Positions 310-51,005 of a stretch of DNA of 64,000 nucleotides are shown in pieces. Position 1 is the first letter of the stretch; each line of letters starts with the position of its first letter. The stretch comes from Halorarum salinum (GTDB lineage: Archaea; Halobacteriota; Halobacteria; Halobacteriales; Haloferacaceae). The stretch spans positions 992,001 to 1,056,000 of the forward strand of contig NZ_CP058579.1 of assembly GCF_013402875.1 (NCBI RefSeq), given 5' to 3'. Both the position numbers and the translations under genes were made by a program. The notes under the pieces were generated by a model. The model saw nothing but the letters and a program-made list of their open reading frames with translations. It searched no databases and had not been told where the DNA came from.

Positions 310-621
310 TCAAGTCGTGTCCTCGTCTGCGTCGTCTCCATCCGAGAGCCGGGTCGAAAGTCGGTCGAAGCGATTCGATGCGGACGCAGCCCGTTCTGCG
401 GTCGCGTCGGGTTCGTAGGTGAACTCCTCCGGATCGCCGTCGACGACTGTGACGGTGAACACGGCATCTTGCTGCCGTCCCTCCTTTGGGAGTCGAGAGC
501 TGGGGACGACTTCCTCGTCGACTACCTCACCGTCCGATTCGATCAGAAGCACTGCCATCTCCTCCCCATCCTCGAGTTCCTCGAAGCGATCTAATGTCGC
601 CGTCAGCTCGGTTTCACTCAT
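310..621 (-). CDS. DUF3006-type small acidic protein
   Basis: A 103-residue, strongly acidic protein. It starts with a DRFE segment, then a strand-rich core (AVLLIESDGEVVDEE, VFTVTVVDGD) and ends in a low-complexity acidic tail. This is the usual shape of DUF3006 proteins, which are small beta domains of unknown function often encoded beside secreted or ComEC-like metallo-beta-lactamase-fold proteins. Its ATG overlaps the stop of the upstream lipoprotein gene by 4 nt (ATGA), so the two are probably co-translated. It is the second gene of a two-gene unit. The function is unknown; the family call rests on pattern and context. Confidence 0.7.
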   Translation of the reverse strand: MSETELTATLDRFEELEDGEEMAVLLIESDGEVVDEEVVPSSRLPKEGRQQDAVFTVTVVDGDPEEFTYEPDATAERAASASNRFDRLSTRLSDGDDADEDTT

Positions 622-2063
622 TGGTAGTCCTCCTCGAGTACGAGTCGACCGTCCGAATGGGTAACGACCACCGTATCTCCGCCATTATTCCAGATGGCAC
701 GTTCTGCACCCCAGTACAGTTCCGAATCAGTGTTCGTACCGCTACCGGAATAGAGGGTCACTCGCTCACCCGGCTCCAGCGTGAAGCCGTCGGGGACGGT
801 ATAGGTGTGATCCGCCGCGTCAGCGACTTGCCAGCCTGAGAGGTCCAGCGGGTCATCGCCCGTGTTCTCGAAGACGACGTACTCGTCGTTCAGGTTCTCG
901 TTGTCGTTCCCCGCTGCATCTGCGTGGACGTCGACGAGTGAAAGCGACTCGCTCTGGGAATCCGGGGGTGTCGTCGTCTCGGTGGTCGGCGTCTCAGTGG
1001 TGTCGATTCCACCGTCAGCGAGTGCGCCACCGACCGTCAGCTGCAGTTCGAGTTGTGCGTCACTGCCTGGCTCGATTGGTGATCCGTCCCGGAGGTCAGT
1101 CGCGGTCGTCGGTGCTGCCTGCTGGGTCCATACCTCGACTGCTGTCCCGTTCGATCGGACTGCGACAGTACCGTGGGTCGCGGTCCAGAGCGTCGGAATC
1201 TCGCGGTCGGCAAGCCGTTCGAGCGTCTCGGTGTGGGGGTGGTCATACTGGGAGTCGAACGCGCTCGAGATGACCGCTATCTGTGGCGACGTCGCATCGA
1301 GCAGTTCCTCCCCCGTACTGGAACTGCTCCCGTGGTGGCCGGCTTGCAGGACGGTCACGTTCAGCCGGTCGCCGTACGTTTCGGCGATGTGTGCTTCATG
1401 TTCGGCTTCCGCGTCACCGGGGAACAGGAAGCTCGTCTCGCCGTGTTGCACGTAGAGGACGAGGCTGTTCTCGTTCCTGTCCTCGCCAGCGAGGTACGGT
1501 TCCGGCGGGCCGAGCACCGTGGCGTTCACGCCATCGAGTGGCAGCGAATCGCCTTCCCTCGTTTCATAGAGCGGCACCTCGTGTTCCTCGATCGCATCGA
1601 GGTAGTCAGCGTATGTCTGGGAACTCGACGTGATGCCGGGGTCGTACACTGCGCCGATGCCGTCCCGCTCGGTCTCATAGTGGTTGATGATCGCCGCATG
1701 GCCACCGATGTGGTCAGCGTCGGCGTGAGAAGTGACCAGGTGATCGATGCGGTCGATTCCGAGCCTGTTCAGCGCGGTTAACACGTACTCGCCGTCATCG
1801 CGCCAGTCGCCCGAATCGATCAGCATCGTCTCGCCGTCAGGCGTGATGAGGACCGTACTCGCCCCCTGGCCGACGTTGATGTAGTGGACTTCGAGCGTCC
1901 CGTTCTCATCGCCCTGGAGCTGTGGTGGATCAGACGCCGGCGTCTGTGTCGAAGCGTCAGTAGGGGTCTCGCTAGTCGGTCCGGCTCCGAGACCACCAGC
2001 ACAGCCACTCAACGCCACGAGCACCACGATCGCGACGATGAGCCCTCCTCGTCGACCGAGCAT
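618..2063 (-). CDS. Secreted lipoprotein: MBL-fold hydrolase (ComEC C-domain-like) with lamin-tail domain
   Basis: 481 residues. Residues 1-21 are a lipoprotein signal (positive start, hydrophobic stretch, lipobox ALSGC with Cys21), so the protein should sit outside the cell on a lipid anchor. A Thr/Pro-rich linker follows. Residues about 55-300 are a metallo-beta-lactamase fold with the metal motif SHADADHIGGH near residue 112 and HHGSSSS further on, as in the hydrolase domain of ComEC-type proteins. Residues about 375-481 are a lamin-tail-like (LTD) beta domain (YVVFENTG...LDLSGW). ComEC-domain proteins degrade or process DNA during uptake and LTD domains occur on extracellular nucleases, so an extracellular nuclease is a reasonable inference. 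It is first in an operon with the DUF3006 gene. Confidence 0.85.
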   Translation of the reverse strand: MLGRRGGLIVAIVVLVALSGCAGGLGAGPTSETPTDASTQTPASDPPQLQGDENGTLEVHYINVGQGASTVLITPDGETMLIDSGDWRDDGEYVLTALNRLGIDRIDHLVTSHADADHIGGHAAIINHYETERDGIGAVYDPGITSSSQTYADYLDAIEEHEVPLYETREGDSLPLDGVNATVLGPPEPYLAGEDRNENSLVLYVQHGETSFLFPGDAEAEHEAHIAETYGDRLNVTVLQAGHHGSSSSTGEELLDATSPQIAVISSAFDSQYDHPHTETLERLADREIPTLWTATHGTVAVRSNGTAVEVWTQQAAPTTATDLRDGSPIEPGSDAQLELQLTVGGALADGGIDTTETPTTETTTPPDSQSESLSLVDVHADAAGNDNENLNDEYVVFENTGDDPLDLSGWQVADAADHTYTVPDGFTLEPGERVTLYSGSGTNTDSELYWGAERAIWNNGGDTVVVTHSDGRLVLEEDYQ

Positions 2064-4945: not shown

Positions 4946-5086
4946 CTACGCCGGGATCAGCACGAACTCGAAGATGTGATGGTCACCATACTCTTCCTGG
5001 TGCTCGGCTTGCCGGTCGAGCACGTCGTCCAGATCCTCGATATCGTCGTGGTGCCCACACACCGGACAGGTGACTTGATACGTCAT
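4946..5086 (-). CDS. Small zinc-finger-like protein, 46 residues
   Basis: An ATG at 5084-5086 opens 46 codons to TAG at 4946-4948. The protein begins MTYQVTCPVCGHHDDIEDLD, so a CPxCGH knuckle sits at residues 7-12. An acidic, His-rich helix follows, ending in the hydrophobic tail IFEFVLIPA. One CxxC plus several His could hold one zinc ion. Small CPxCG-type proteins are abundant in haloarchaea and mostly uncharacterised, and many are thought to be regulatory. It lies between the response regulator gene and the ArdC-like gene on the same strand and has its own AT-rich upstream region (TTATTTAAATACT at about 5149-5161). Confidence 0.6.
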   Translation of the reverse strand: MTYQVTCPVCGHHDDIEDLDDVLDRQAEHQEEYGDHHIFEFVLIPA

Positions 5087-5215
5087 GGTACTCACGTAGG
5101 TTTGGGTACTGACCACTTCTCCATTAGACCCCGTCTTGCAATCGCGGATTATTTAAATACTACTGAGATTGGGATTTCGCCCCCGGTCGCGCACCTGTTG
5201 GGATCACAGCCGGTG

Positions 5216-6172
5216 TTATTTGGTTACGTCCACAGCCTCGATGAGCGTCGCTGTCGTCCGACTGATTCGATCGAGTCGGTCGAGTATCGCCTCAGGATCC
5301 TCACCGTGCCAGGCAGCCAGATAGAACTCGGACCCGCTCGTATCGAGACCGAAATGGCGGCCGATGATCGCCGCGACCGCCTCGGCTTCGAGTTCACGTT
5401 TCGCCCGGTTGGCTCTCTCATCGATGCCACCGTGAAGTTCGGCGTGTGCGTACTCGTGGATGATCGTCACGGCCAGGTCGGCCCTGTTCTCGCGGTCATG
5501 GACCTCGACGTTTGCCCGCTCGGTTTCGCCAGCTGCGTACGTACAGACACCCTTGGCTTCACCGTGTGACCACGCCGCTGGTGAAACGATGTCGACGTCG
5601 ATGGAGAGCTCAGAGGCAGTTTTGAGTAGCGCTGGGACCAACTCCGCTGCATTCCCTGTCGCCGCCGTCTCCAGGTCGGGAAGCGGTTCACCCTCGGTCT
5701 GGGAGATGTCGAACACGGGGACGGGGCGAAACCCGACGAGTCCCTCGTCCCACTTCTCGGGGCCGGTCTCGTCGTATTCACAGTCGCTCGCATCGTGATA
5801 CGACGGGGAGTTCTCGCACTCGGGACAGCGCGCCGTGATGATGGGCGCCCAGATTCAGATCGCGGATTCGCCCTCCTGGACCTGTCTGTCGAACTCTTCC
5901 TGCCACGTCCGGTAGCCCGCGACGCGGGTCGCGTCCGGACACTGGAGCGTGATGAGGAGCGTGTTCCGATGTGAGTAGTCGTGGAATCGACTCTGGACGT
6001 CGACCCATGCGTCGAATGCATCGCTCGCTCTCGCGTCGGTAACGCCGTCTACGAGCTCGCGTGCCCACTGTTCGATCATGCTGTGCATCTCGTCATCCCG
6101 GCCGTCCGGGTCGTCGAACGATGCCTGTTCTTCGCTGGTCGAGACAGACTCATCATTGGCTGTACCTGTCAT
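5216..6172 (-). pseudogene. ArdC-like antirestriction protein with ImmA/IrrE-type peptidase domain, interrupted by one in-frame TGA
   Basis: Two pieces lie in exactly the same frame and are separated by a single TGA at 5855-5857. The upstream piece (residues 1-105) has the ArdC N-terminal pattern, including SRFHDYSHRNTLLI and VAGYRTWQEEFDRQVQEGESAI. After the stop, the frame continues IWAPII, a Cys pair (RCPEC), then VGFRPVPVFDIS and the metal site HEYAHAELHG of a zinc peptidase. In relatives the interrupted position is Trp (AIWIWAPI), so one TGG-to-TGA change explains the break. ArdC proteins bind single-stranded DNA and protect incoming elements from restriction. The gene carries the shared hairpin element just upstream (6181-6208). 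A downstream ATG at 5714-5716 could still give the peptidase half alone. Confidence 0.8.
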
Positions 6173-6180
6173 GTCGACTC

Positions 6181-6208
6181 GCTCCGCACCCCTCAGGGAG
6201 CAGAAAAA
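6181..6208 (-). promoter_or_regulatory. Shared AT-box plus GC-hairpin element upstream of the ArdC-like gene
   Basis: Read on the - strand, an AT box (TTTTTC) is followed by TGCTCCCTGAGGGGTGCGGAGC and, 8 nt later, by the ATG at 6172. The GC part folds as CTCCC/GGG(G) with a short loop. The same arrangement precedes the TFB gene, the SWIM gene and a small zinc-protein gene at 51 kb. About 30 nt separate the AT box from the ATG, which fits a TATA box of a leaderless haloarchaeal transcript with the hairpin placed like an operator. Confidence 0.5.
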
Positions 6209-6286
6209 CAGTTCCGTGCGCTCACTCGGTAGACTTGATTCGACTACGTTCCTTGCTCACATAGAAACAAGGAGGAAATTCACAAT

Positions 6287-6637
6287 TCAGTCGTGGGTAC
6301 CTGACTCGGTCAAGTAGTTGTACAATTGGTCGACAGCTCTGTCGACCGTCTCCTGCTCGACCCGCCCGAACCAGTCGTCGATATCGTCGTGAGCCGGTGA
6401 AACGACGCCCCACGGGACGATGAAGCTCTGGTCGGGGACACTGCCCTCTATAAACGCGTCAGCCGGGAGTGGAAGCGTCTCACTGTGCCACGTTTTCGTC
6501 GTGAGGGTGAGTGCGACGTACTGCTCGGGCGAGAACGGGTGGGCAGTCGAATTGACGATCAAGAACGGCCGAGATGGATTTCGTTCCGTGAACGGATCGC
6601 TTGCCTCGATGACGTCGCCTCGTTCGTACGCCGTCAT
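6287..6637 (-). CDS. PemK/MazF-like protein, probable toxin
   Basis: 116 residues. The start YERGDVIEASDPFTE and the segment RPFLIVNSTAHPFSPEQYVALTLT match the beta-barrel fold of PemK/MazF proteins, which are mostly sequence-specific endoribonucleases. A Ser/Thr-rich strand and the FIVPWGVVSP segment complete the barrel. The ATG overlaps the stop of the upstream HTH gene by 4 nt, the usual gene order for a toxin behind its regulator. Inference: a type II toxin-antitoxin pair. Many haloarchaeal homologues of this fold have not been tested, so RNase activity is not assured. Confidence 0.7.
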   Translation of the reverse strand: MTAYERGDVIEASDPFTERNPSRPFLIVNSTAHPFSPEQYVALTLTTKTWHSETLPLPADAFIEGSVPDQSFIVPWGVVSPAHDDIDDWFGRVEQETVDRAVDQLYNYLTESGTHD

Positions 6638-7005
6638 TCGTCCGCCGATTCATCGTCAGAAGAATTGGATGTATCCGCGCCTGCAGAGCGCCACTCGTCC
6701 ATTTCCTCGGCTCCCAACTGTTCGTTTAGGGCCTCGAGACTTCGACTGAAGTCTGACGCGGTCGCTATTCGCTCCCGATCACCGATCGCCCAATATGGGG
6801 GCTTGTGTCGCACCAGCCCCCGTTCCTTGAGTCGGGACAGGACTGCGCTGACTGAATTCGGATCGATCCCCGTTGCTTCAGCAATCTCTCGGCGTTCGAA
6901 TGCACTGTCATCGTTTCGGGCGAGGAACCGGACGATCTGCTGTGCATGGGTCTCGCCAGCGGCGGACGCAGAGCGGTGATCGAACGTCTCGATGTCGATT
7001 GGCAT
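6634..7005 (-). CDS. MarR-like winged-helix regulator, probable antitoxin partner
   Basis: 123 residues from the internal ATG at 7003-7005 (protein start MPIDIETF), chosen because haloarchaeal relatives begin there; an ATG 9 nt upstream is also possible. Residues about 20-75 form a winged helix (QIVRFLARNDD..AFERREIAEATG, then SVSAVLSRLKERGLV with a wing around HKPPYWAIGD). The C-terminal third is acidic and likely disordered (SSDDESADE), as in antitoxins that fold on the toxin. It is translationally coupled to the MazF-like gene downstream. It probably represses its own operon and neutralises the toxin; that is inferred from context. Confidence 0.75.
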   Translation of the reverse strand: MPIDIETFDHRSASAAGETHAQQIVRFLARNDDSAFERREIAEATGIDPNSVSAVLSRLKERGLVRHKPPYWAIGDRERIATASDFSRSLEALNEQLGAEEMDEWRSAGADTSNSSDDESADE

Positions 7006-7221
7006 GAAGAACACTAGGTGTTTGGAAGTATGTATATTTGGCTGTTTGTGCCGTAGTAGATTTTCATGTCTTCCGGCCCCGCACCGTCATAGAATCACTG
7101 GAAAATCGTTCCTCAATTCGAGCCCCTCTCGGAGTGTCCGTCCATGCAGCAGCTACTCTGCATACCAATCGTGCTGGGGTTCGTATTGCTACCAGTTGCC
7201 CCGTCCTGCGTTTCCGAGTGT

Positions 7222-8160
7222 TCATTTGCAGCCGCTCTGTGCGTTCTGCAGTTCGTTCCGCCGTTCTCGAACCGTCACCGGCGTTACGTCGGCTGCGTCG
7301 CCGAGTTCCGCTTGCGTAATCCGTTTACCCATCTCCTTCCCCGCAACATACACACAGGCCGCCGCGACGCCGTTCGGATCTCGGCCGTTCGCGATCCCAG
7401 CCTCGACCGCGACGTCTGCGAGCCGCCGAGCACGACGCCCGACCGCGCTGGAGGCATCGACCGCAGACACGAGCCGCGGGACGAGCGCGGGCGGATGTCG
7501 TGGTGCTGCATCGAGTCCCAGTTCCTGATTTAGGACTCGGTACCCCAGCGTCACCTTGGATTCATCACTTTGGGCGACCGCCGCGACCTCGTCGGTCGTC
7601 CGCGTGATTCCATCGCAGCGACAGGCCGCATAGACACAGCCCGCGGCGATGGTCTCGATCGCCCGGCCACGGATGAGGTTCTCCTGCATCGCCTCGCGGT
7701 AGATCGCGGCTGCCCGCTCTCTCACTGACTCGGGCAGATCGAGCGCGCTTGTCATCCTGGTGATCTCTCCGCAGGCGTGCGCGAGATTCCGCTCAGCCTT
7801 TGACCCGAACCTGGCGCGATTGTGTTCGCGACGGAGCCGCCGAACCTGCGCTTTCTTCTCACTCGAGAGGCTCCTGTCTGAGTCGGCCAGGCCGTAGCCG
7901 ATCTCGGTCGAGAGCCCGCGGTCGTGTCTGGTCTCAGTTAACGGAGCGCCCGTTCGCCTGGGCGCCGTGTCGTCATCGTCGAACGAGCGCCACTCCGGCC
8001 CACGGTCGAGCCGCTGGTCGGTGATGACGAGTCCGCAGTCGGTGCAGTGGCGCTCGCCGGCGTCCGCGAGTACGGTGCCGTCGCACTCGGGACACGTCGC
8101 GGCGAGGTGGTAATCGGTCTCTTCGTCGAAGCCTGTTTCGTAGACGTCTCGCAGAGCCAT
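7222..8160 (-). CDS. tfb: Transcription initiation factor TFB (TFIIB homologue)
   Basis: 312 residues. An N-terminal zinc ribbon has CPEC at 23-26 and CTDC at 39-42, followed by the B-finger region (GPEWRSFDDDD, RRTGAPLT). Two cyclin-like repeats come next, each with the AIETIAAGCVYAACR / GVAAACVYVAGKEMG pattern. TFB bridges TBP bound at the TATA box and RNA polymerase. Haloarchaea carry several TFBs, and accessory copies steer subsets of promoters. This copy lies among ArdC-like, MazF and SWIM genes and carries the same hairpin element in front (8185-8215) as two neighbours, so I infer it is an element-borne TFB rather than the housekeeping one. Confidence 0.93.
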   Translation of the reverse strand: MALRDVYETGFDEETDYHLAATCPECDGTVLADAGERHCTDCGLVITDQRLDRGPEWRSFDDDDTAPRRTGAPLTETRHDRGLSTEIGYGLADSDRSLSSEKKAQVRRLRREHNRARFGSKAERNLAHACGEITRMTSALDLPESVRERAAAIYREAMQENLIRGRAIETIAAGCVYAACRCDGITRTTDEVAAVAQSDESKVTLGYRVLNQELGLDAAPRHPPALVPRLVSAVDASSAVGRRARRLADVAVEAGIANGRDPNGVAAACVYVAGKEMGKRITQAELGDAADVTPVTVRERRNELQNAQSGCK

Positions 8161-8184
8161 TGTCGATCACGCGAGGCAATCTCG

Positions 8185-8215
8185 GCTGCCCCGCACCCCT
8201 TGGGGGCTGACAAAA
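8185..8215 (-). promoter_or_regulatory. Shared AT-box plus GC-hairpin element upstream of tfb
   Basis: On the - strand an AT box (TTTTGTC) is followed by AGCCCCCAAGGGGTGCGGGGC; the tfb ATG is about 48 nt after the box. CCCC and GGGG pair across AA. The sequence and the order (box, hairpin, GTGCGG) match the elements at 6181-6208, 8764-8792 and 51011-51040. Confidence 0.5.
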
Positions 8216-8228
8216 TCTGCTGCGGACG

Positions 8229-8738
8229 TTACTGGCCGGGGACGGAGCGGCGACCTGCGAGGACGCAATTCCAGCAGGGGAAGTCGTCAGTCAGGTCGTC
8301 GCACTCGCAGGGATACTCCTCTTCGTCGATGCCGTCCCGAGAGGCCTCATCGGAGTCGACGGGCTCATCACTGGCGTCCGGAGAGTGTTGTGTGTCCTTC
8401 TCCGCAAGATACTGCTCCTCGGAGAGCGGCTGGTTGGATGACCCAGAGCCGTCAGCGGCGAGCTGTGCGTGAATCGCTGCCTCGAGAACGGGCGTTCTGA
8501 TGGCGACCGCGACCCGGTGTTTGCAGGCGCCCTCGTACTTCCTGTCTGCTGGGCACTCACAGTGAGTGGGAAGTCCGTCTGTCACGGTGACCCGGTACTC
8601 GTGATTCTCGGGGTCGGTGTAGCTGCCATTTCTAACGAGGAGTGTGCCTTCCCGGAGTTCGAATTCGAACGCCTCGTACTGGGCACGTTTGAGGACAAAC
8701 GTCGATACATCTAGACGGGCAAGTGGATGTGCTGGCAT
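8229..8738 (-). CDS. SWIM zinc-finger protein
   Basis: 169 residues. The N-terminal beta-rich part (YEAFEFELREGTLLVRNGSY) leads into a SWIM finger with Cys60, Cys62, Cys72 and His74 (CECPADRKYEGACKH). SWIM fingers bind DNA or proteins and are frequent in haloarchaeal accessory regions. A long acidic linker follows, and the C-terminus has a second Cys cluster (CECDD....CWNC) that may hold another zinc. It follows tfb's upstream region with the same strand and the same upstream element. Its role is unknown; I infer a regulatory or nucleic-acid-binding function within the accessory segment. Confidence 0.8.
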   Translation of the reverse strand: MPAHPLARLDVSTFVLKRAQYEAFEFELREGTLLVRNGSYTDPENHEYRVTVTDGLPTHCECPADRKYEGACKHRVAVAIRTPVLEAAIHAQLAADGSGSSNQPLSEEQYLAEKDTQHSPDASDEPVDSDEASRDGIDEEEYPCECDDLTDDFPCWNCVLAGRRSVPGQ

Positions 8739-8763
8739 ATCGGGACTGCGAGGGCGACTGAGT

Positions 8764-8792
8764 CGCCCCGCACCCTCGGGGGGCAGATAAAC
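8764..8792 (-). promoter_or_regulatory. Shared AT-box plus GC-hairpin element upstream of the SWIM gene
   Basis: On the - strand: TTTATC, then TGCCCCCCGAGGGTGCGGGGC, then 27 nt to the ATG at 8738, so the AT box lies 47 nt before the start codon. The spacing and sequence closely match the tfb element. CCC and GGG can pair across CGA. Confidence 0.5.
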
Positions 8793-9041
8793 TCCCCGTC
8801 GCTATCCAGCCTTAATCGCAGGCGGGTGACCACTCGTATTCGTCTGCGCGTTTGAATCGGATTCCGTTCCTCGTGGTGGGAGAGAAGCGTGGGTTGACTA
8901 CTTTCTCAGTGAAGGAACGTCCATCGAGGAGGTCAACTTTCGCGACGGAGGGGTAGTGATTCCGTTTAGCACGGGTGACATGACTTCGTTCGAAGGCAAA
9001 TACGCAGGACTTAACCCCGACCATGTAACACAACTTTGACG

Positions 9042-10448
9042 ATGAACGGGGGGTGGCGATATCGACTGTTCGCGGTCCTCGGCGTCGCCGTGTTCTCGGC
9101 AGTCGCCGTGGCGCTCGTCAACAACGCGAGCGTCCAGTCGCTTGCCGATACGGTGCCAGTCCTCTCGCGACTCTCGCCCGATCCACCAGGAGCGGCGGAG
9201 TTCACACTCGAGATCCTGACGACCGTCGTCGTGTTCGTGCTCGCATTTTTGCCGTTGTACAAGCCACGCCCACGGCGGATTCTGGACGTCATCGCGCTCT
9301 CCCAGAAACGGGTGTTGCTGGCGATGTTCGCTCTGGCGACGGTCGGCTACTTCGATTATACGTACCGGCTGCCGAGGCTGACCGTATTACTGGTAACGCC
9401 GATATTGTTCGTGGCATTGCCGGCATGGTTCGCGTGGATTCGTCGTCGACCTACTGAAGGCCAGGAGCGGGCCATCGTGGTGGGTGATGATCCCAAACTG
9501 ATCCAACAGGTGGCACGGGAGGTGGAGATCCCGTTACTGGGGTACCTCTGCCCAACGAAATCATTCGAGTCGGGTAGTGTCGATTCCAAGGAGGTGCTGG
9601 CGATGGCCGATGGTGGAGAGACCTTCGTAGGGTTGACGAGGTTGGGGGGGCTGTCTCGGATTGAAGACGTTCTCGTTGAATACGATATCAATACTGTAGT
9701 GCTTGCGTTCGAGCACGCAGACCGCGCGGAGTTCTTCGGTGCACTCGACGCGTGTTACGAGCACGGTGTTGCGGCGAAGGTTCACCGCAACCATGCGGAT
9801 TCGGTGTTGACGTCCGGGAATGCCGCTGGGACGCTGGTGGACGTCGAAGTGGAGCCCTGGGACGTACAAGACTACATGGTGAAGCGTGCATTCGACGTAG
9901 TGTTCTCGGTCGTCGGGCTGGTTGTGTTGGCTCCTGTCGCATTGATAATCGCTGTTGGGATTAAGGTGGACGATGGTGGGCCAGTGCTGTACGAGCAAGA
10001 GCGGACTGCCGTGTTCGGGGAGACGTTCGACGTGTACAAGTTCCGGTCCATGGTGCCCAAGGGGGAGTCATCAACGCCTGTCGAGGATGCAAAGAACAAT
10101 CGGATCACCGACATCGGGCAGACGTTGCGTCGGACGCACCTCGACGAGATTCCACAACTGTGGTCGATTCTACGGGGGGACATGAGCGTAGTGGGTCCGC
10201 GAGCGGTGTGGACTAATGAGGAAATGCTGCTGGAGGACGAATCAGAGATGTGGCGCAAGCGGTGGTTCGTGAAGCCCGGATTGACGGGGCTGGCCCAGGT
10301 TGAAGGTGCGAAGAGTACGGATCCGGCGGAAAAGTTGCGGCTAGATCTGGAGTACGTTCGACGGCAGTCGTTCGGATATGATGTGAAGATGGTCCTGCGA
10401 CAGGTCTGGCAGATAATGGAAGAGGTGACATCTATAGCACGTAGTTGA
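9042..10448 (+). CDS. Polyprenyl glycosylphosphotransferase (initiating sugar-phosphate transferase, WcaJ/EpsL type)
   Basis: 468 residues from ATG 9042; a TTG two codons earlier is less likely. Residues about 5-130 contain four membrane helices, followed by a soluble middle domain (AIVVGDDPKLIQQV) of the CoA-binding-like type seen in this family. Residues about 280-468 are the bacterial sugar transferase domain: KRAFDVVFSVVGL, VYKFRSMV, DEIPQLWSILRGDMSVVGPR and KPGLTGLAQVEG. It transfers a sugar phosphate from a nucleotide sugar to a membrane polyprenyl phosphate, the first committed step of exopolysaccharide or glycan assembly. It opens the polysaccharide locus that continues to about 27.3 kb. 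Confidence 0.92.
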   Translation: MNGGWRYRLFAVLGVAVFSAVAVALVNNASVQSLADTVPVLSRLSPDPPGAAEFTLEILTTVVVFVLAFLPLYKPRPRRILDVIALSQKRVLLAMFALATVGYFDYTYRLPRLTVLLVTPILFVALPAWFAWIRRRPTEGQERAIVVGDDPKLIQQVAREVEIPLLGYLCPTKSFESGSVDSKEVLAMADGGETFVGLTRLGGLSRIEDVLVEYDINTVVLAFEHADRAEFFGALDACYEHGVAAKVHRNHADSVLTSGNAAGTLVDVEVEPWDVQDYMVKRAFDVVFSVVGLVVLAPVALIIAVGIKVDDGGPVLYEQERTAVFGETFDVYKFRSMVPKGESSTPVEDAKNNRITDIGQTLRRTHLDEIPQLWSILRGDMSVVGPRAVWTNEEMLLEDESEMWRKRWFVKPGLTGLAQVEGAKSTDPAEKLRLDLEYVRRQSFGYDVKMVLRQVWQIMEEVTSIARS

Positions 10449-11109
10449 TCCGAATATAATCCCAACTTACCTATAAGTATTCTGACTCCAATGTGGTCAG
10501 TCATGATTGCATGGAAATATCCGGTTGCAGAGAACACGCGACCTACCGGTGTCCCAATGCCCGGGCCAACGATCAACCAAGGGGGTCTCTGAAGTTGATC
10601 TTGGCTGTTCAATATTATATCTTTGTTGCCGACGCTAACAGGTGCCATCGGCAACCATTTCGTGGGAAATGAAGTATAGAAGACAACCGCATCATATTCA
10701 TAACAACCTTGTTCTCCAGTCGGATCAAGCAAAGTATCTCAGAACGAAACCCAAGGTTAGTTCACAAAATCCATATTAGGAGGCACATCTCGACATCGTG
10801 CGGTTGCCGATCTGTACGAGAGACCGTAACGTTCTGTGTGAGGTGCGCGACGCAGAGACGTATTGGAGGCAGTCGCCGATGTCGTCGTCTACCGAGTGAC
10901 GCAGACTGATGTCTGGATGAGCGTCGCCGAGTCTATCTAGTCGTACCACGAAAATCACAAGTGGGACCTTCAACTAGCGCGGTCGCCGATGGGGTTCGGT
11001 CTCTTCGGCGGATCACAACTTGACGGGAACTTCCCTCCTCCCGGCGCCGAACGAACGCGTTTATTACTGCGCTGCCGCTCAGGAAGGACAACGTGGCGGT
11101 CGTATCTCT
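10449..11109. other. 660-nt intergenic region without a supported gene
   Basis: The segment is more AT-rich than the flanks. On the - strand a frame from 10732 gives YDAVVFYTSFPTKWLPMAP and GPGIGTPVGRVFSATGYFHA, and 10776-10973 gives a second short frame; neither shows a known motif and the first runs into the antisense of the preceding gene. TTTATTA at about 11058 is a possible TATA box some 50 nt before the ABC exporter start. Confidence 0.4.
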
Positions 11110-12918
11110 ATGAGCATTGATGACACTGAACCGGTCTCTAAACGTGAGAAGGTCGACGCCCTCCTGGATGTCGCGCGGTATAAACCTCGCTTCACCGCCG
11201 GGATAGTGGCCCTCGGGGTCGCCGCAGCGGTGCTCGAAGGCGTCGGGTTGAGCTTCATCCTACCGATCGTTGAGTTGGTGCAACTCGAGGACCCCGCGAC
11301 GCAGGCAGACGGCCTGCTCGGGCTATTCGTCGTTGCTTACCAAGCGGTCGGTCTTCCGTTCACGCTCGGGTACGTGGTGCTCGGAGTTTCACTCGTAATG
11401 GTGGTGCGTTACACGACGAGCTTTGCGGTGGCATGGCTTCGCGAGGCAGTTCGGACCTACTATATCCGCGACCTGCAGGACAGGGCATTTCGGAATGCAC
11501 TCAACGCCCAGGTCGCGTACTTCGACGAAGAGGGGTCTGACGACATCTTGAACGCAATCGTGACACAGACGACGTATGCTGGACGGGTGATTCAGCGAGC
11601 CATCCAGCTGTTCGAGCAGTTCTTCCTCGCCGCAGTGTACTTCATCATCGCGTTGGTGATCGCGCCCAGTCTGACGATTGCGACAGGGATCGTCCTCGGC
11701 GGCTTCACCGTCTTCTTCCGGCGGGTGATTGAGTCCGGGTACGACATCGGCGACCGGGTCGCGGAGGCGAACGAGGAGCGCCAAGAAGCGGTGCAGGCTG
11801 GCACCCAAGGGATTCGCGACGTGCGGATTTTCGGCGTCACAGACGAGCTGTACGGTGACTTCCGGGACGCGATCGAAAAGTTCACCACCGAGCGAATCGC
11901 CCTTAGGCGCAACGAAGCGGCCATTAACAGTTTCTACAATCTCGTCGTCGCTGTGTCGGTATTCGTGCTTATCTACTTCGCACTGACCTTCGCTGACCTC
12001 TCGCTCGGGTCACTTGGTGTGTTTCTGTTTGCGATGTTCCGTCTTGGTCCACGTGCCAGCAGCGTGAATCGGCTATTCTATCAGGTCGAGAACGATCTAC
12101 CGCATCTCGTTCGCACAATCGCGTTTGTGGAGGACCTCGAACAGCGGCAGGAGCCCCGAGAGGGAACGGTCGACTCCCCGAAAGAGGTGACGAACGTCAA
12201 GTTCGACGACGTCCACTTCTCGTATGACGGCGACGAGCAGGTATTACGAGGGATCGAATTTAACGTTGAGAAGGGCGAGTTCGTCGCGTTTGTTGGTCAA
12301 TCCGGAGCGGGAAAGTCGACGATCGTCTCGCTGCTCGCCCGGATGTATGAGGTCGACACAGGCGAGATCCGCGCGAACGGCACGCCGATCGACAAGATGG
12401 ACCTCGATGAGTGGCGCGACCGGATTTCCGTGGTCAGACAAAATCCCTTTGTGTTCAACGACACGCTCCGGTACAACCTCACGATTGGGAACCGCGACGT
12501 GAACGACGACGAGCTGGATCGCGTGTGTGAGATCGCGAAGGTTGACGAGTTCCTTGCGGAACTTCCCAAGGGATATGACACGATGCTCGGCGACGAAGGT
12601 GTGCGGCTCTCCGGCGGCCAGAAACAGCGTGTGGCGTTGGCACGGGCGTTACTGGAAGACGCAGACTTACTGATTCTCGACGAGGCGACGAGCGATCTAG
12701 ACTCGGATCTGGAGAAGCAGGTACAGCAAGCCATTGAGGAGATGGACCGCGAGTACACAATCGTGACAATCGCACACCGGCTGTCGACGGTGAAGAACGC
12801 AGATAGGATTTTAACCGTCGAAGACGGGCAGATTATCGAGTCCGGCAGTCACAGACAACTCGTTGACCGAGGTGGGAAATATGCTAAGCTATACAGGATT
12901 CAGTCAACGAAAGAATAA
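11110..12918 (+). CDS. ABC exporter, fused permease-ATPase (MsbA/flippase-like)
   Basis: 602 residues from ATG 11110; the frame is open upstream, but that extension is not acidic or family-like. Residues about 30-320 hold six membrane helices of the exporter type. The ATPase follows: Walker A GQSGAGKST at about 396-404, signature LSGGQ at about 500, Walker B LLILDEATSDLDSD and the H-loop TIAHRLSTVKNADRI. Half-transporters of this kind dimerise and move lipids or lipid-linked glycans across the membrane. Inside this locus the likely cargo is a lipid-linked oligosaccharide made by the neighbouring glycosyltransferases, a PglK-like role; that is inference. No Wzx-type flippase is seen in the locus. 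Confidence 0.92.
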   Translation: MSIDDTEPVSKREKVDALLDVARYKPRFTAGIVALGVAAAVLEGVGLSFILPIVELVQLEDPATQADGLLGLFVVAYQAVGLPFTLGYVVLGVSLVMVVRYTTSFAVAWLREAVRTYYIRDLQDRAFRNALNAQVAYFDEEGSDDILNAIVTQTTYAGRVIQRAIQLFEQFFLAAVYFIIALVIAPSLTIATGIVLGGFTVFFRRVIESGYDIGDRVAEANEERQEAVQAGTQGIRDVRIFGVTDELYGDFRDAIEKFTTERIALRRNEAAINSFYNLVVAVSVFVLIYFALTFADLSLGSLGVFLFAMFRLGPRASSVNRLFYQVENDLPHLVRTIAFVEDLEQRQEPREGTVDSPKEVTNVKFDDVHFSYDGDEQVLRGIEFNVEKGEFVAFVGQSGAGKSTIVSLLARMYEVDTGEIRANGTPIDKMDLDEWRDRISVVRQNPFVFNDTLRYNLTIGNRDVNDDELDRVCEIAKVDEFLAELPKGYDTMLGDEGVRLSGGQKQRVALARALLEDADLLILDEATSDLDSDLEKQVQQAIEEMDREYTIVTIAHRLSTVKNADRILTVEDGQIIESGSHRQLVDRGGKYAKLYRIQSTKE

Positions 12919-13383
12919 AGCAGTCAAAGGCCGTTCAGGCTGTATCAAAGTTAGTAAAACAGATGGAAAATACGGAGTTATGGAACTAAAAAGTGATTGA
13001 TATGTAAATAAAAGATTCTAGCGGATTGTGAGACTGCATTTGATTTTACTCCTCCATAGGCCTCAATGTTATATGTTTCGTATATATGTGTATCGCAGGA
13101 TTCGTGGTACTACTCTTGGACAGGCACTAAGGGCCAAGCGTATCCTATCTCGATGATAAGTCTGTCTCAGACATCACTCCTAACCATACAAAACAAGACA
13201 AGCGGAACGATCATAACGGTGATTACAGTGATGAGAGCAAGGTTTTGTTTCGTATTCTATATAGTATAGCCTCAATCCCAAATACTTTTCCGTGAGTGTG
13301 ATTTATAAAAACCAACTACTAGAATAGAGAGGGAACAAAGTCACTGCATTTACCAAGAAGTGACTGCTCTAAGGTGAGTATAC
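12919..13383. other. AT-rich 465-nt intergenic region
   Basis: This gap is visibly AT-rich (runs such as GTTATATGTTTCGTATATATGTG near 13069-13091) and marks the left edge of an AT-rich block that extends through the next three genes. A 67-codon frame on + (13066-13269) is not protein-like. It probably holds the promoter for the pyruvyltransferase-like gene (for example TTATAAAA near 13302-13309). Confidence 0.5.
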
Positions 13384-14334
13384 GTGAAATATGGACTACT
13401 CGAGTACACGACAAGCAATATAGGAGACGAAATACAGAGCTTAGCTGCGAAACAGCTCTTGCCAAAGGTTGACACATACTTAAAACGTGACTACTTAAAT
13501 CAAGTCAATACTCAGGAGGAAATAAAAATTATTCTTAATGGGTGGTTCACGCATCATCCAGAGAATTGGCCCCCAGCAGATAATATAAACCCCCTCATTA
13601 TATCATTTCATATTGATAAAGAAATTTCCGATAGGCTACTAACGCCTAAATCTGTAGAATATCTCAAAAGATATGATCCAATTGGATGTCGGGATTTGTA
13701 CACTAAAAGCATTCTAGAAAATAATGGCATCGATGCATATTTTTCTGGGTGTTTAACTCTAACGCTTACTCCTGACCAACAATTAAACAATTCCGATGAA
13801 ATTCTTCTTGTAGATCTTGATCACGAAGTAGTAGATGCTTTACCAGATAATTTGACTCAAGATGCTCGAACCATGTCACACTATACAGACCCAATTGAAA
13901 AAATAGAAAATAAAACTCGAAAAAATGTGCCTGCAACCGCTAAAAAAATCGCGGGAGCCAGTAGATTGGACCATTTATATAATTATTTATTTGATATCAC
14001 TAAGAACCGCACGACCGTGTTGAAAACTGATAGAGAATCAAAATTCCAGAAGGCAAAACAATATCTTGCGAGATATGCGCAAGCAGAGTTAGTGATTACT
14101 TCTCGACTGCATGTAACTCTACCTTGTTTAGCATTCGACACCCCTGTCATACTTGTTCACCGGAATATAAATGATCCAAGATTTAGTGGACTAAGTGAGT
14201 ATATGAACTTAGTGGACCGATCTAATATCATTAACCAAGAATATACGAATTTCCTCGATTTGGAAACACCAAAGTCTATTGTACCTATACAGAAGGAGTT
14301 AGAGAATGCAGTAGAAGAATTCATTGCGGAATAG
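13384..14334 (+). CDS. Polysaccharide pyruvyl transferase family protein
   Basis: 316 residues from GTG 13384. The protein opens with YGLLEYTTSNIGDEIQSLAA, the GDE-type start of the polysaccharide pyruvyl transferase family. The segments LNGWFTHHPENWPP, ISFHI, PIGCRDLYTKSILENNGI and SRLHVTLPCLAFDTPVILVH are the rest of the family pattern (two Rossmann-like halves, GT-B-like). Known members put pyruvate ketals on glycans such as EPS or S-layer-associated polymers. The gene is AT-rich with codons like AAA, ATA and TTA, unlike the sugar-transferase and exporter genes before it, which suggests recent transfer. The Ser-Arg-Leu-His motif and overall length (about 300-380 in the family) support an intact enzyme. 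Confidence 0.85.
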   Translation: MKYGLLEYTTSNIGDEIQSLAAKQLLPKVDTYLKRDYLNQVNTQEEIKIILNGWFTHHPENWPPADNINPLIISFHIDKEISDRLLTPKSVEYLKRYDPIGCRDLYTKSILENNGIDAYFSGCLTLTLTPDQQLNNSDEILLVDLDHEVVDALPDNLTQDARTMSHYTDPIEKIENKTRKNVPATAKKIAGASRLDHLYNYLFDITKNRTTVLKTDRESKFQKAKQYLARYAQAELVITSRLHVTLPCLAFDTPVILVHRNINDPRFSGLSEYMNLVDRSNIINQEYTNFLDLETPKSIVPIQKELENAVEEFIAE

Positions 14335-14376
14335 CTCGATGAGTACTCTTACGCATGTCGCGAAAAGACTCTCTAT

Positions 14377-15084
14377 ATGATTTCCACAGATGAGGAATTT
14401 GACCCTTTCAGTCAGTATGCTGGTAAGGGACCGCAGTACCGACAGCGCTTCGTTCGATGGTTCCATAATAACCGACTCTCGGACTTTTCTAGTCTAATTG
14501 ATCCAGGGAACACCTTGTTATCAGTTGGATGTGGAAACGCAGAGCTGGAATCAAAAATTCTCAGTACCAAATTTGAGGATATATACTCAGTTGAAATCCA
14601 CCGCGGTCGAGCAAAAATAGCATATGAAAAGCAGCTGTCTAGCATTCAAGGTTCTGCACAATTGATGCCATTTTCCGAGAACTCTTTTGATGCGATCGTC
14701 GCTGCAGGTACTATCGAACACTTACCAGATGAAAAGGAATTCCTCAAGGAAGCGTACAGATGTCTCAAGCCAAATGGTCATCTCTACTTTACTATCCCAA
14801 TCGAAGTTGGTATCGGCGGGTTTGTCCGTTATCTTGCAAAGAATTTCGTACATCCTAACCGGAATGATTCGCCTGATGGATTAAAGCGGTATATCGATTA
14901 TACAAGTGAAGAATTTTTCAAGACAGTTCCACGAAACAAACATGGAACATTTCATCGGTATTACAATTATGTCTATATTCTTAATGACACCAAACGGACC
15001 TTTTCGGAAGTTGAGATTCAAGGGTGGCCGATTACTCAGCTCAAACAACTAAATCTGATTCTGTTTGTGAAGGCAGATAAATAA
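14377..15084 (+). CDS. SAM-dependent methyltransferase (class I, Methyltransf_11 type)
   Basis: 235 residues. The SAM site reads LLSVGCGNAELESKI near residues 48-62, with the acidic strand-2 end SVEIHRG, motif AQLMPFSENSFDAIVAAGTIEHLPDE split over two strands, and the post-IV region EAYRCLKPNGHLYFTIPI. The C-terminal part has aromatic residues that may form a sugar- or lipid-binding lid. It is AT-rich like its neighbours and lies 42 nt after the pyruvyltransferase-like gene, so it is probably co-transcribed. Methylation of a sugar in the exopolysaccharide repeat is the likely role; small-molecule alternatives cannot be excluded. Confidence 0.85.
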   Translation: MISTDEEFDPFSQYAGKGPQYRQRFVRWFHNNRLSDFSSLIDPGNTLLSVGCGNAELESKILSTKFEDIYSVEIHRGRAKIAYEKQLSSIQGSAQLMPFSENSFDAIVAAGTIEHLPDEKEFLKEAYRCLKPNGHLYFTIPIEVGIGGFVRYLAKNFVHPNRNDSPDGLKRYIDYTSEEFFKTVPRNKHGTFHRYYNYVYILNDTKRTFSEVEIQGWPITQLKQLNLILFVKADK

Positions 15085-15258
15085 TCACGTGGTTGAGTCG
15101 AGGTTATGGGAAATGGTCCGGTCTTTTTGAGTTGCTCATTAGGGTCCTCCTTCATCGCTATGTCACCCGTGCACTAGTTTGAAGGAACCAAAGTATACAT
15201 CGAATCTTATGTCGATATCGGCAACGACGGGTTTATGCATACTATCAATATACCGTAA

Positions 15259-16206
15259 ATGAGTGCTCATAAGAAGACTATGACAGACTACATTGCGTAT
15301 ATTGTTGGTGGAGATAGTTGGACTCCGTGTTATGTGTCAATTTACTCACTTCTATCAAACAACCCAAACAGAAGATTCAAGATATTTATACTATCTGAAG
15401 AAAACAAGAGTGTGAAATTTTTCAATAACATTGACTTCCTAAATGATGTCCACGGTGATTTCGAAGTAGAGTACATATGGATTGATGAAACACAGTATGA
15501 TGATTTCCCAAGAGCCGATAATGGCCAGAACCACCTAACAAATGGAGTATACTTCAAACTATCAATAGACGATTTTCTCCCAATTGATGGAAATGTTCTG
15601 TATCTTGATGCAGACACAATAGTTGATGGTCCCCTTGATGATTTGCTTGATCGTGATATGAGTGATTGCATTATCGCAGCTTCGCCTGATCGGTTAAATA
15701 GAATTCTCGGTTTAGACATTCCTAATACAAAACGCTATTTCAACGCGGGGGTTTGTTACATAAATTTAAATAATTGGTCTGATATGAATATAGGAGAGAA
15801 AGCTATAAAATATATATTTGAAAAGAATCCCGATCTAAATGATCAAACAGCGATGAATGTGACGTTACATCAACTAGATATGGTGGATATCATATCACCA
15901 GAATATAACGCTCACGGACACTGGGCTAAAGAGTTCCAGAAATACGATGAAAATCCTATTATAATTCATTATACTGGGAGAAATAAACCATGGCATTATT
16001 GGACGAAGCGTCCTTACAAAAAAACTTGGGTGAGCTACTGTTCAGAGACTCCTTTGGATAACTATTATCCACAAGATAAGGACTTAAAGTCATATCTTCA
16101 GAGTAAGCAGCATCTTATAGAAAGAACTGTAAGTAATCTTCTTGAACCATACCCAGTTGCCAAACGTAGTATCAGCAATGCTTATGATGCCTTAGTTAAA
16201 CAGTAG
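15259..16206 (+). CDS. Glycosyltransferase family 8
   Basis: 315 residues. The pattern is that of GT8 enzymes (GT-A fold, retaining): N-terminal YIAYIVGGDSWTPCYVSIYS, the DxD metal site in LYLDADTIVDG at about 117-119, FNAGVCYINLNNW, then DQTAMNV and the C-terminal HYTGRNKPWHYW. These residues bind Mn and the nucleotide sugar; bacterial relatives add galactose or glucose to lipopolysaccharide cores. An alternative start at the second Met (residue 8) is possible. The gene is strongly AT-rich. It presumably adds one sugar to the lipid-linked repeat unit. Confidence 0.9.
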   Translation: MSAHKKTMTDYIAYIVGGDSWTPCYVSIYSLLSNNPNRRFKIFILSEENKSVKFFNNIDFLNDVHGDFEVEYIWIDETQYDDFPRADNGQNHLTNGVYFKLSIDDFLPIDGNVLYLDADTIVDGPLDDLLDRDMSDCIIAASPDRLNRILGLDIPNTKRYFNAGVCYINLNNWSDMNIGEKAIKYIFEKNPDLNDQTAMNVTLHQLDMVDIISPEYNAHGHWAKEFQKYDENPIIIHYTGRNKPWHYWTKRPYKKTWVSYCSETPLDNYYPQDKDLKSYLQSKQHLIERTVSNLLEPYPVAKRSISNAYDALVKQ

Positions 16207-16375
16207 AATAGCACTTATTAGTGCCATTATACTAGTGATCGATGGGTTTGTATCATAAACGGACGATCTCTGGTAATGTTACTAGGAAATTCTCCCGTCA
16301 CATCCGTCATCCTTAACGAAATGTTGCCCGCTAAAATACGAAAATTATAAATACTGGATTCTTGAAATCTGGTTA

Positions 16376-17704
16376 ATGGTGTGGTCGCTACTCTTAATAA
16401 TAATTACAATCATAGTATTTTGGACCTTTTACTGTGCGTTGTATCCGAAACGTTCTTTTCTGTTTTTGATATTTGTAAATATAACATTCTTTAATTGGCC
16501 CGTTATTAATGTGGTTCCCGAGATCGCGCCTATCCGGATAACTGATCTGATGCTTGTTGGATTGATTGCCGGGCTGATACTCACCCGTAAGATCGGCTAC
16601 GAGATAATTATTCCTCCGATTGATAGCGTCATTACAAGCTTTGGAATTTTCTTGATCCCTATATTTGTCTTCCCAGCCCTTGGCACACTTGTACAAGGTT
16701 ATTCGCTTACCTACCTAACATCCGGTATTCGATTCGTACAATGGTTTACATTTCTCATTATCGCTCTGAACCTGAGCATAAATGATAATCTTCGATTTCA
16801 TGACTTCTTTGTGGTTATGTACCTCTCTATCGCCTTCCATACAGGATTTTCCGTCCTACAATACATCGATTATCACAGCGTTGCTGGCCTTTTCACCGAC
16901 AAAAATTACTTTGACGTAATTATTAGCGCACATTACAGTCGCGTGACCGGCTTTCATGACTCACCAATAATTGCTGGCCAGTTTGCGTCGTTAGTGACGC
17001 TACTGTGTCTCCCATATCTGCTCAGTCGGCGTCACTACATACACCTCTTCTTCTTCGTGGTGGCGGCGGGATTCATAATCTTGTTTAGTCAAACAAGGGC
17101 CGCGCTGGTCACATTCATCGTCGGAATTCTGCTCTTTGCGATCTTCAGCCCAGAAATCCGTTTTAAGAATACGATAGTGTACGGCCTCCCGTCTCTTTTA
17201 GCGTTGAGTGTCGTAGTTGGAACGGTTAATATTATTCCAAGCAGAGTCATGGAATTGCTTGACGTTCTTTCTCGCGGACCGCAGGCCATCTCCAGTCTAC
17301 AGGTTAGATTATCATACTGGGAACAGGGAATCGACATGTATCGTACTTATGGGTTCTGGGGGACATTGGTGAATGCGAACGCGCTAAAGGGGACATTAAC
17401 TGATAACTATTACTTACAGTTGTTCGTTCAGGCTGGCCCACTCGGACCTCTCACATTGGTCATGTTGCTGATCTCTATTATGGCCCGGCCGACACTCAAG
17501 TTCAACGATGAGAGGGAGCATCTTCAGATCGGGCTTCGAATCTTCGCCTGTTGTCTGGCTATTGGCCTTCTTGTTCATAATCTGTTCCCTCTCCCTCCTA
17601 TTCAAATTCCTCTGTGGACGGCGGTTGGCATCGCGTACGGCTTGTCCTATTCTCGAGATATGTCGGCCCATGTTTCAAACAGTTCACCTAGCAATGTTCC
17701 TTAG
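16376..17704 (+). CDS. O-antigen ligase/polymerase-like membrane protein (Wzy/WaaL family)
   Basis: 442 residues with about eleven membrane helices. A conserved-looking stretch near the middle (LFSQTRAALVTFIVGILLF) and a large loop with VRLSYWEQGIDMYRTYGFWG resemble O-antigen ligase/polymerase proteins, where Arg and the following loop act in glycan transfer. C-terminal helices end in a short Ser/Asn tail. Together with the flippase-like exporter and the initiating transferase, this gives a near-complete lipid-linked polysaccharide pathway. Base composition returns to a higher GC level in its second half. It converges with the GT4 gene on the other strand, 88 nt away. Confidence 0.85.
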   Translation: MVWSLLLIIITIIVFWTFYCALYPKRSFLFLIFVNITFFNWPVINVVPEIAPIRITDLMLVGLIAGLILTRKIGYEIIIPPIDSVITSFGIFLIPIFVFPALGTLVQGYSLTYLTSGIRFVQWFTFLIIALNLSINDNLRFHDFFVVMYLSIAFHTGFSVLQYIDYHSVAGLFTDKNYFDVIISAHYSRVTGFHDSPIIAGQFASLVTLLCLPYLLSRRHYIHLFFFVVAAGFIILFSQTRAALVTFIVGILLFAIFSPEIRFKNTIVYGLPSLLALSVVVGTVNIIPSRVMELLDVLSRGPQAISSLQVRLSYWEQGIDMYRTYGFWGTLVNANALKGTLTDNYYLQLFVQAGPLGPLTLVMLLISIMARPTLKFNDEREHLQIGLRIFACCLAIGLLVHNLFPLPPIQIPLWTAVGIAYGLSYSRDMSAHVSNSSPSNVP

Positions 17705-17792
17705 GTAACCAGCACCGTCAATGGATTATCAGTAGTCTCCCAATCGTCCAAGAAGGCTATCTCGTCGCTTTAGAGTTGAAGATTGATGACCG

Positions 17793-50541: not shown

Positions 50542-50760
50542 TCACGGCCCCGCAAACCCATCCGGCAGACACACCGGCGTCGCCTCGAACTGGACGTCCC
50601 TGACCGGTTCCATCCCGACCTGGTACCAGGGGTCCTCGGCGTGCTCGCGACGGAGTTCGATGCGATTCCAGCCACCGCGCTCGGGTGCGGGCTGGAACAC
50701 GTGCTGGCGCTGGCCATCCTCGTCAAGTTCGTACGTGATCGCGAATCGGTGAGCCGTCAC
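50542..50760 (-). CDS. Small hypothetical protein, 72 residues
   Basis: MTAHRFAITYELDEDGQRQH is followed by VFQPAPERGGWNRIELRREH and EDPWYQVGMEPVRDVQFEA: a small, mostly beta protein with no known motif. The ATG overlaps the stop of the zinc-protein gene upstream (ATGA at 50757-50760). The pair looks like an operon of small haloarchaeal accessory proteins. Function unknown. Confidence 0.6.
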   Translation of the reverse strand: MTAHRFAITYELDEDGQRQHVFQPAPERGGWNRIELRREHAEDPWYQVGMEPVRDVQFEATPVCLPDGFAGP

Positions 50761-51005
50761 CGCGTCTCACCTGTCGAGCCGCGCGAGCCGACCGTGACTG
50801 GAATCCGTGTGAGGACGAGCCCGCATCGCTCACAACAATCGAGTACGTCGAAGCCGATACGCGCCAGTGTCCGATCAGACTGCCGGTGGGGACAGCGACT
50901 CGGTAGGCCGACGAGCGGGTCCGCCGACTGCTGTGCGCCTCGGTTGATGGCGATGAACTGTTCGAGACGGTCGAACCGTTGGGTGGGTGTCGATGATGGT
51001 GACAT
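50757..51005 (-). CDS. Small zinc-finger-like protein, 82 residues
   Basis: ATG 51003-51005 (MSPSSTPTQRFDRLEQFIAI). A helix is followed by SRCPHRQSDRTLARIGFDVL and then DCCERCGLVLTRIP, so one CxH-like and one CxxC pair could bind zinc. The start was chosen because the shared hairpin element lies 5 nt in front of it. It belongs to the group of genes (ArdC-like, TFB, SWIM) that share this element, although it is 42 kb away. Confidence 0.65.
   Translation of the reverse strand: MSPSSTPTQRFDRLEQFIAINRGAQQSADPLVGLPSRCPHRQSDRTLARIGFDVLDCCERCGLVLTRIPVTVGSRGSTGETR

Follow-up and report, generated by a model that had tools for sequence, protein, structure and literature searches.

A putative promoter and leader element shared by co-oriented accessory genes of haloarchaeal plasmids and plasmid-derived islands

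Introduction

The window analyzed here, 64,000 nucleotides (nt) of Halorarum salinum (contig NZ_CP058579.1, positions 992,001 to 1,056,000), raises the question of why accessory genes unrelated in function share one upstream element. This element consists of a T-box (TTTNTC) and a GC-rich palindromic core, GCxCC-loop-GGGTGCGGx'GC. A first-pass annotation, made from the sequence of the window, had placed copies of it ahead of an ArdC-like gene, a transcription factor B (TFB) gene, a SWIM zinc-finger gene, and a gene for an 82-residue zinc protein. In this work, we found that the element is a real and widespread mobile-DNA cassette of haloarchaea, and apparently an undescribed one. We think it probable, though well short of certain, that it is a promoter-plus-leader cassette of haloarchaeal plasmids and plasmid-derived islands that coordinates a gene set of mobile elements. 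Three observations are new, namely, the uniform orientation of neighboring copies (70 of 70 pairs), a separate clade of element-bearing TFBs, and a second hairpin in the copies of the long-spacing class.

Results

The element in the window and the genome

All four sites are present with the layout proposed for them, on the minus strand (Table 1), and have weight-matrix scores of 25–32 (25.4 bits for copy 4). The two proposed spacing classes also hold: the distance from the first T to the ATG is 36 nt for the ArdC-like gene (copy 1) and 34 nt for the 82-residue protein gene (copy 4), compared with 54 nt for tfb (copy 2) and 53 nt for the SWIM gene (copy 3). At every one of the four sites, x of GCxCC can pair with x' of GGx'GC (T/A, C/G, C/G, and A/T in copies 1–4), which is the compensation that had been named as support for a conserved stem. 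Copy 1 has no mismatch to the genome-wide pattern, and its 3'-arm GGAG lies 9 nt before the ATG.

Further copies in the same genome lie at 75131, 123660, and 125383, ahead of paralogous ArdC, TFB, and SWIM genes, and a degenerate copy at 138951 precedes a paralogue of the 82-residue protein gene. The genome thus holds the set twice. One set consists of tfb and SWIM at 123.7–125.4 kb plus ArdC at 75.1 kb; the other, at 998–1001 kb, has ArdC, tfb, and SWIM together. The ArdC-like gene of copy 1 is frame-shifted near 5850, with its N-terminal 105 codons in one frame and the rest in another; the paralogue behind the same element at G000:C1:75131 is intact (317 codons).

Chance level and spread among haloarchaea

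The first-pass annotation had proposed a motif scan of this genome and other haloarchaea, and had regarded random occurrence in intergenic GC-rich DNA as one outcome that would count against the element. This concern is justified for the bare GC core, which was rejected as a genome marker: with two mismatches allowed, 20 matches were found in the window against 15.7 expected, and the 4.26-Mb genome has 14 exact matches against 16 for a control read backwards. It does not apply once the AT box is included. The combined pattern TTTNTCNGCNCCC-N(1-4)-GGGTGCGG has 34 exact matches, spread over 13 of the 170 family genomes searched, whereas the reversed control has none, so that the full layout stands far above chance. 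Likewise, a weight matrix at threshold 18 gave 268 matches in 0.9 Mb of fetched loci and 0 in the reversed sequence; these loci were chosen because matches were present, such that the count is enriched and includes some copies twice, but the zero of the control is unaffected.

A 27-position profile has matches in 146 of 392 genomes of the order and 49 of 95 genera, a sequence-only measure that ignores structure and whose weakest matches (E near 0.1) will include chance ones. The profile was built on 27-mers because MAFFT slips the spacer in sets of mixed length. It misses some copies with longer spacers, including the one at 75131 and copy 4 of the window, and the genome counts are therefore minima. 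By BLAST, 54 plasmid records contain element DNA, and among the matches listed all are haloarchaeal except three chance matches. A viral origin was rejected, as neither of two scans of viral contigs returned a convincing copy and the 57 GC-palindrome matches lack the T-box layout of the set; a scan of genome contigs with the same pattern returned true haloarchaeal copies mixed with chance bacterial matches. Covariance models of Rfam had no match in positions 5000–9200 of the window (E<=1) or in five related loci (gathering score). We found no description of the element in the literature searched; most subscription journals lay beyond that search, and an earlier description is possible.

Genes behind the element and their orientation

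The 173 distinct copies that were read lie ahead of genes for SWIM zinc-finger proteins, ArdC-like proteins, and TFBs, followed by a tail of other genes. Representative genes carry the Pfam names ArdcN, TFIIB, SWIM, DUF6610, DUF6166, DUF7389, DUF6735, and HNH_repeat. The similarity groups of these genes are rough, one of them merging SWIM, DUF6610, and a family that has no name, owing to frames that they share. Across haloarchaea the genes are those of plasmids or islands, which supports the claim that the genes behind the element form an accessory set. On annotated plasmids the order of the block is TFB ... SWIM ... DUF6166 ... DUF6610-ArdC, and orc1/cdc6 and ParA genes are close by in one case. 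The DNA upstream of 109 non-redundant copies is unrelated, and the element is therefore not merely carried along by recent duplication. A search for a common motif in these 109 upstream regions gave only a mild enrichment of CCGC at -12 to -9.

Neighboring copies point in the same direction in 70 of 70 pairs from the 33 fetched loci with at least two copies, whereas the same-strand background in two annotated blocks is 44–61% of gene pairs, depending on distance. With each locus counted once, the chance of this outcome is 0.6^33 = 5e-8, an approximate value since some loci are related. Genes on the opposite strand sit between the co-oriented copies, and a single orientation spans up to 19 kb. 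This agreement in direction ahead of unrelated genes of mobile DNA suggests that the element switches the whole set on together.

A second SWIM family also lies behind the element, with 182 residues, a C-terminal SWIM domain, and a Zn-ribbon-like CRNCGHE (L106 ~3924 and L020 ~2579).

A clade of element-bearing TFBs

The presence of a dedicated TFB in the set, proposed in the first-pass annotation, is borne out by a tree in which 18 element-bearing TFBs separate from 25 other TFB rows on one branch with support of 100, the other rows being the best Pfam matches from six genomes rather than a full sample and several branches being long. Additional loci contain 18 TFBs that have the clade's N-terminal signature or a close variant; an upstream element scoring at least 11.5 precedes 17 of them, and the remaining one scores 5.2. 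The upstream scores of TFBs that lack this signature do not exceed 6.3, and five more TFBs of the clade have scores from 7.0 to 28.4. The clade and the element thus travel together, and nearly all of the members examined, the tfb of the window included, are themselves behind the element.

One chimeric gene behind the element (L021, G040:C11, from 1556 onward) joins the N-terminus of a TFB to a family starting MHQLIYALVEAPNRDDAL, which suggests recombination between element-bearing genes.

Promoter-like anatomy of the T-box

Apart from the TTTNT at bases 1–5, the region from -100 to +65 has no AT-rich stretch over 69 non-redundant copies. This box has a fixed position upstream of the gene and fits TTWT, the haloarchaeal TATA consensus derived from differential RNA sequencing of Haloferax volcanii (PMC4983044). 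For a haloarchaeal TATA promoter, the transcript start would be expected 24–28 nt downstream. A TATA box farther upstream, for a longer transcript, was rejected, since no AT peak exists within 100 nt upstream. The element departs from the basal promoter of that study in having C at position 6, in lacking the CGAAA form of the TFB recognition element (BRE), and in having a GC-rich palindrome where the -10 WW would lie (PMC4983044). At the place expected for the BRE, the stretch from -6 to -1 is purine-rich (G/A), with A favored at -2 and G at -1 beside the T-box; in place of the -10 WW, there is a single conserved T at base 20 inside the GC-rich core.

This core is nearly invariant among copies. 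The outer pairs of the palindrome are mostly Watson–Crick (75 to 89 of 91 copies per pair), the forms of x/x' include T/A, G/C, and A/T, and the outermost pair is C/G instead of G/C in some copies.

A second hairpin in the putative leader

Between the element and the ATG, copies of the long-spacing class have a second hairpin (hairpin II), which the first-pass annotation had missed. Its 5' arm reads CGGxGC... from base 22, such that the 3' arm of the palindrome pairs with a downstream arm. The latter ends mostly 7–13 nt before the ATG (median 10 in strong cases, up to 19), a distance that holds although the T-box lies 51–72 nt from the ATG. The stems have 6–12 base pairs (bp) and vary in sequence, e.g., CGGGGCAGTCCG/CGGGCTGCTCCG and CGGGGGTGCTC/GAGTACCTTCG.

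Deviations from Watson–Crick pairing are strongly asymmetric. With the pairing register chosen by Watson–Crick pairs only, the 368 cells with a G in the 5' arm have T opposite it in 83 instances and A or G in 38 instances, compared with 47 and 99, respectively, in shuffled leaders; a 5'-arm C (bases 22 and 27) faces A in just 2 of 142 cells. The excess of G:T over A:C has p = 7e-11, with cells that are not fully independent. Because G:T but not A:C deviations are tolerated, the coding strand appears to pair with itself as RNA or as a single strand, rather than the pattern reflecting a double-strand symmetry. Hairpin II would thus be selected as a coding-strand nucleic acid, most simply as the leader of an mRNA. 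The SWIM leaders alone form a consensus helix of eight pairs, in which G-C and G-U replace each other and two pairs differ in both bases, and positions 22, 25, 27, and 28 show several types of Watson–Crick pairs.

In the short-spacing class, the palindrome itself takes the place of hairpin II before the ATG, and these copies all keep the full palindrome. Over all copies, no association between outer palindrome and hairpin II that would indicate a trade-off was found (p = 0.44).

Discussion

A proposed promoter-plus-leader cassette and its alternatives

In the reading that we favor, the T-box would most likely be the TATA box, and the palindromic core, GCxCC-N(4-5)-GGGTGCGGx'GC, would be recognized as DNA by the basal machinery or a regulator. 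The right half of the core would open a leader that folds, in the coding strand, into a hairpin with its 3' arm ending some 10 nt upstream of the start codon. The cassette may in this way place the co-oriented genes for ArdC-type anti-restriction, a private TFB, SWIM and other small zinc proteins, and DUF6610/6166/7389 under common control, perhaps upon entry or establishment. If the TFB of the set acts on the element, the set would be self-reinforcing.

Several findings weigh against this reading. The deviations within the palindrome include mismatches other than G:U, G:U is not preferred, and the left arm hardly varies; for these reasons we regard the palindrome as constrained at the DNA level, with constraint at the RNA level beginning near base 22, a boundary that we infer. 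In established archaeal promoters, a TATA box at bases 1–6 leads to a start near bases 28–31. A pyrimidine-purine step at bases 27/28 lies in the surroundings of this predicted start, but the coding-strand hairpin begins at base 22, and one of the two readings needs an exception: the start may lie upstream of the predicted place, or the hairpin may function in read-through RNA or else in the opened strand at the promoter. Hairpin II also does not lower the accessibility of the ATG region relative to shuffled leaders, the predicted openness of -14 to +3 being 0.41 in read-through RNA and 0.43 with shuffled leaders. Masking of the start codon by fold-back is unsupported by these values and was rejected. 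Lastly, genome G083 has an element ahead of an HNH gene on its largest contig, and among its listed TFB matches none covers the N-terminal signature of the clade.

The mismatch between start and hairpin would disappear if the element insulates genes from upstream transcription: the 5' arm of the hairpin would be missing from transcripts started at bases 28–31, whereas RNA reading through from upstream genes would have both arms and stay untranslated. Such a scheme reconciles the canonical TATA-to-start distance and the step at 27/28 with the coding-strand hairpin. In both spacing classes, the 3' arm is about 5–13 nt before the ATG and the 5' arm is upstream of the predicted start, and the tandem co-oriented genes make read-through likely. 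We consider this unlikely nonetheless, as the near equality of openness in read-through RNA and shuffled leaders is not what it predicts. Quite unlikely, in our judgment, is a pure DNA operator, in which the palindrome between TATA box and start is the binding site for a dimer that represses or activates, and the downstream complementarity is a second half-site. Core positions 9, 11, 12, and 17–24 hardly vary, the left arm has almost no C-to-T changes of the kind compatible with RNA pairing, and the spacing between T-box and palindrome is fixed, all of which would suit a protein bound to duplex DNA. However, such a binder has no need for the arms of hairpin II, which are arbitrary in sequence, compensating, up to 12 bp long, and strongly biased toward G:T over A:C. 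The operator between TATA box and start that the first-pass annotation suggested is thus retained in part: the TATA-like box stands, given its fit to TTWT and the sole AT peak, but a simple operator does not, since the 3' arm of the palindrome also pairs downstream. As for a single-stranded promoter of a conjugative leading region (like Frpo/ssi of F), where the incoming strand would fold and immediately serve for transcription, ArdC-type genes, one orientation over up to 19 kb with opposite-strand genes in between, and a possible TrwB-like coupling protein encoded at 53255–56902 agree with it. Such promoters use the template strand, whereas the structured strand here is the coding one, and the T-box lies outside the conserved stems; this reading of the element seems to us very improbable.

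A role for the TFB clade as a sigma-like reader of T-box promoters, its own included, is compatible with a promoter-plus-leader cassette and deserves serious attention, although we lean against it. The first-pass annotation had raised this role, and the joint occurrence of clade and element is consistent with it. The clade is monophyletic, nearly all members examined carry the element, and A/G at -2/-1 lies beside the T-box where the usual BRE would be. The case of G083 argues against this role, and co-residence on the same plasmids would equally produce the association. More speculative, and rather doubtful, is a complete establishment regulon, in which this private TFB would read the promoters of co-oriented anti-restriction and small zinc-protein genes as well as its own, and the leader hairpin would add a second layer of control.

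Comparison with known systems

Most haloarchaeal mRNAs are leaderless, whereas the leader of the element would probably be at least 20 nt long. Regulons of alternative sigma factors that include an autoregulated sigma gene offer a parallel. The gene set described here similarly includes a private basal transcription factor that shares the promoter, with a TFB in place of a sigma factor and with promoter binding by this TFB as a candidate role. Fold-back inhibition is known from Tn10/IS10 and from the early and late transcripts of phage T4 gene e. As in those cases, an inverted repeat close ahead of the start codon spans the site where transcription would be expected to begin; the element differs in that no masking of the start codon is predicted and that a multi-gene set rather than one gene is concerned. 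The anti-defense sets in the leading regions of bacterial conjugative plasmids (PMC11541004; ArdC of R388, PMC7213743) resemble the present set in having co-oriented ArdC-type genes under a shared element on mobile DNA. The element differs in its archaeal promoter, the RNA-type leader hairpin of the coding strand, and the dedicated TFB, and expression in the entry phase would here be our supposition.

The 27-nt motif together with the hairpin offers a sequence handle for finding co-regulated plasmid genes of haloarchaea, and the element groups many unnamed DUF families with ArdC in a single gene set. Moreover, it makes a long-open question directly testable, namely, why haloarchaea keep many divergent TFBs, and whether mobile elements use TFBs as private promoter readers.

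Features of the window and neighboring genes

Table 1. Element copies, downstream genes, and leader hairpins in the window.
Feature	Position	Strand	Description
Element copy 1	6208-6181	-	T-box TTTTTC and GCTCC...GGAGC palindrome; TTTTTCTGCTCCCTGAGGGGTGCGGAGC; short-spacing class; ahead of ArdC-like gene, ATG 6172
Element copy 2	8214-8188	-	TTTGTC and GCCCC...GGGGC; TTTGTCAGCCCCCAAGGGGTGCGGGGC; long-spacing class; ahead of tfb, ATG 8160
Element copy 3	8791-8765	-	TTTATC and GCCCC...GGGGC; TTTATCTGCCCCCCGAGGGTGCGGGGC; long-spacing class; ahead of SWIM gene, ATG 8738
Element copy 4	51039-51011	-	TTTGTC and GCACC...GGTGC, TGAGG variant; TTTGTCGGCACCCCTGCGGGGTGAGGTGC; short-spacing class; ATG 51005
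ArdC-like gene	5216..6172	-	ArdcN PF08401 in N-terminal part (5855-6172); zincin-like remainder (5216-5716) in other frame
tfb	7222..8160	-	TFIIB PF00382 and zinc ribbon PF08271; element-bearing TFB clade
SWIM zinc-finger protein gene	8229..8738	-	PF04434; commonest gene behind the element
82-residue Cys-rich protein gene	50757..51005	-	No Pfam match; paralogue in same genome at ~138.9 kb (G000:C1)
Hairpin II of tfb	8172..8193	-	CGGGGCAG / TTGCCTCG; 8 pairs, 2 of them G:U; 3' arm ends 11 nt before ATG
Hairpin II of SWIM gene	8751..8769	-	GGGGCGAC-TCA-GTCGCCCT

The interval between tfb and the ArdC-like gene (6290–7014, minus strand) encodes a winged-helix protein (MarR/TrmB-like, 6637–7014, minus strand) and a 116-residue protein that has the look of a PemK/MazF-type toxin by eye and no Pfam match. 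At 53255–56902 (plus strand), 2.2 kb from copy 4, a 1216-residue protein with a weak match to TrwB/HerA ATPases is a possible coupling protein for transfer. The element cluster adjoins a surface polysaccharide cluster (9036–18986) with genes for a sugar transferase, an ABC exporter, a pyruvyl transferase, glycosyltransferases, and a Wzy-like ligase. The gene at 618–2063 (minus strand) encodes a metallo-beta-lactamase fold fused to a lamin-tail domain (PF00932).

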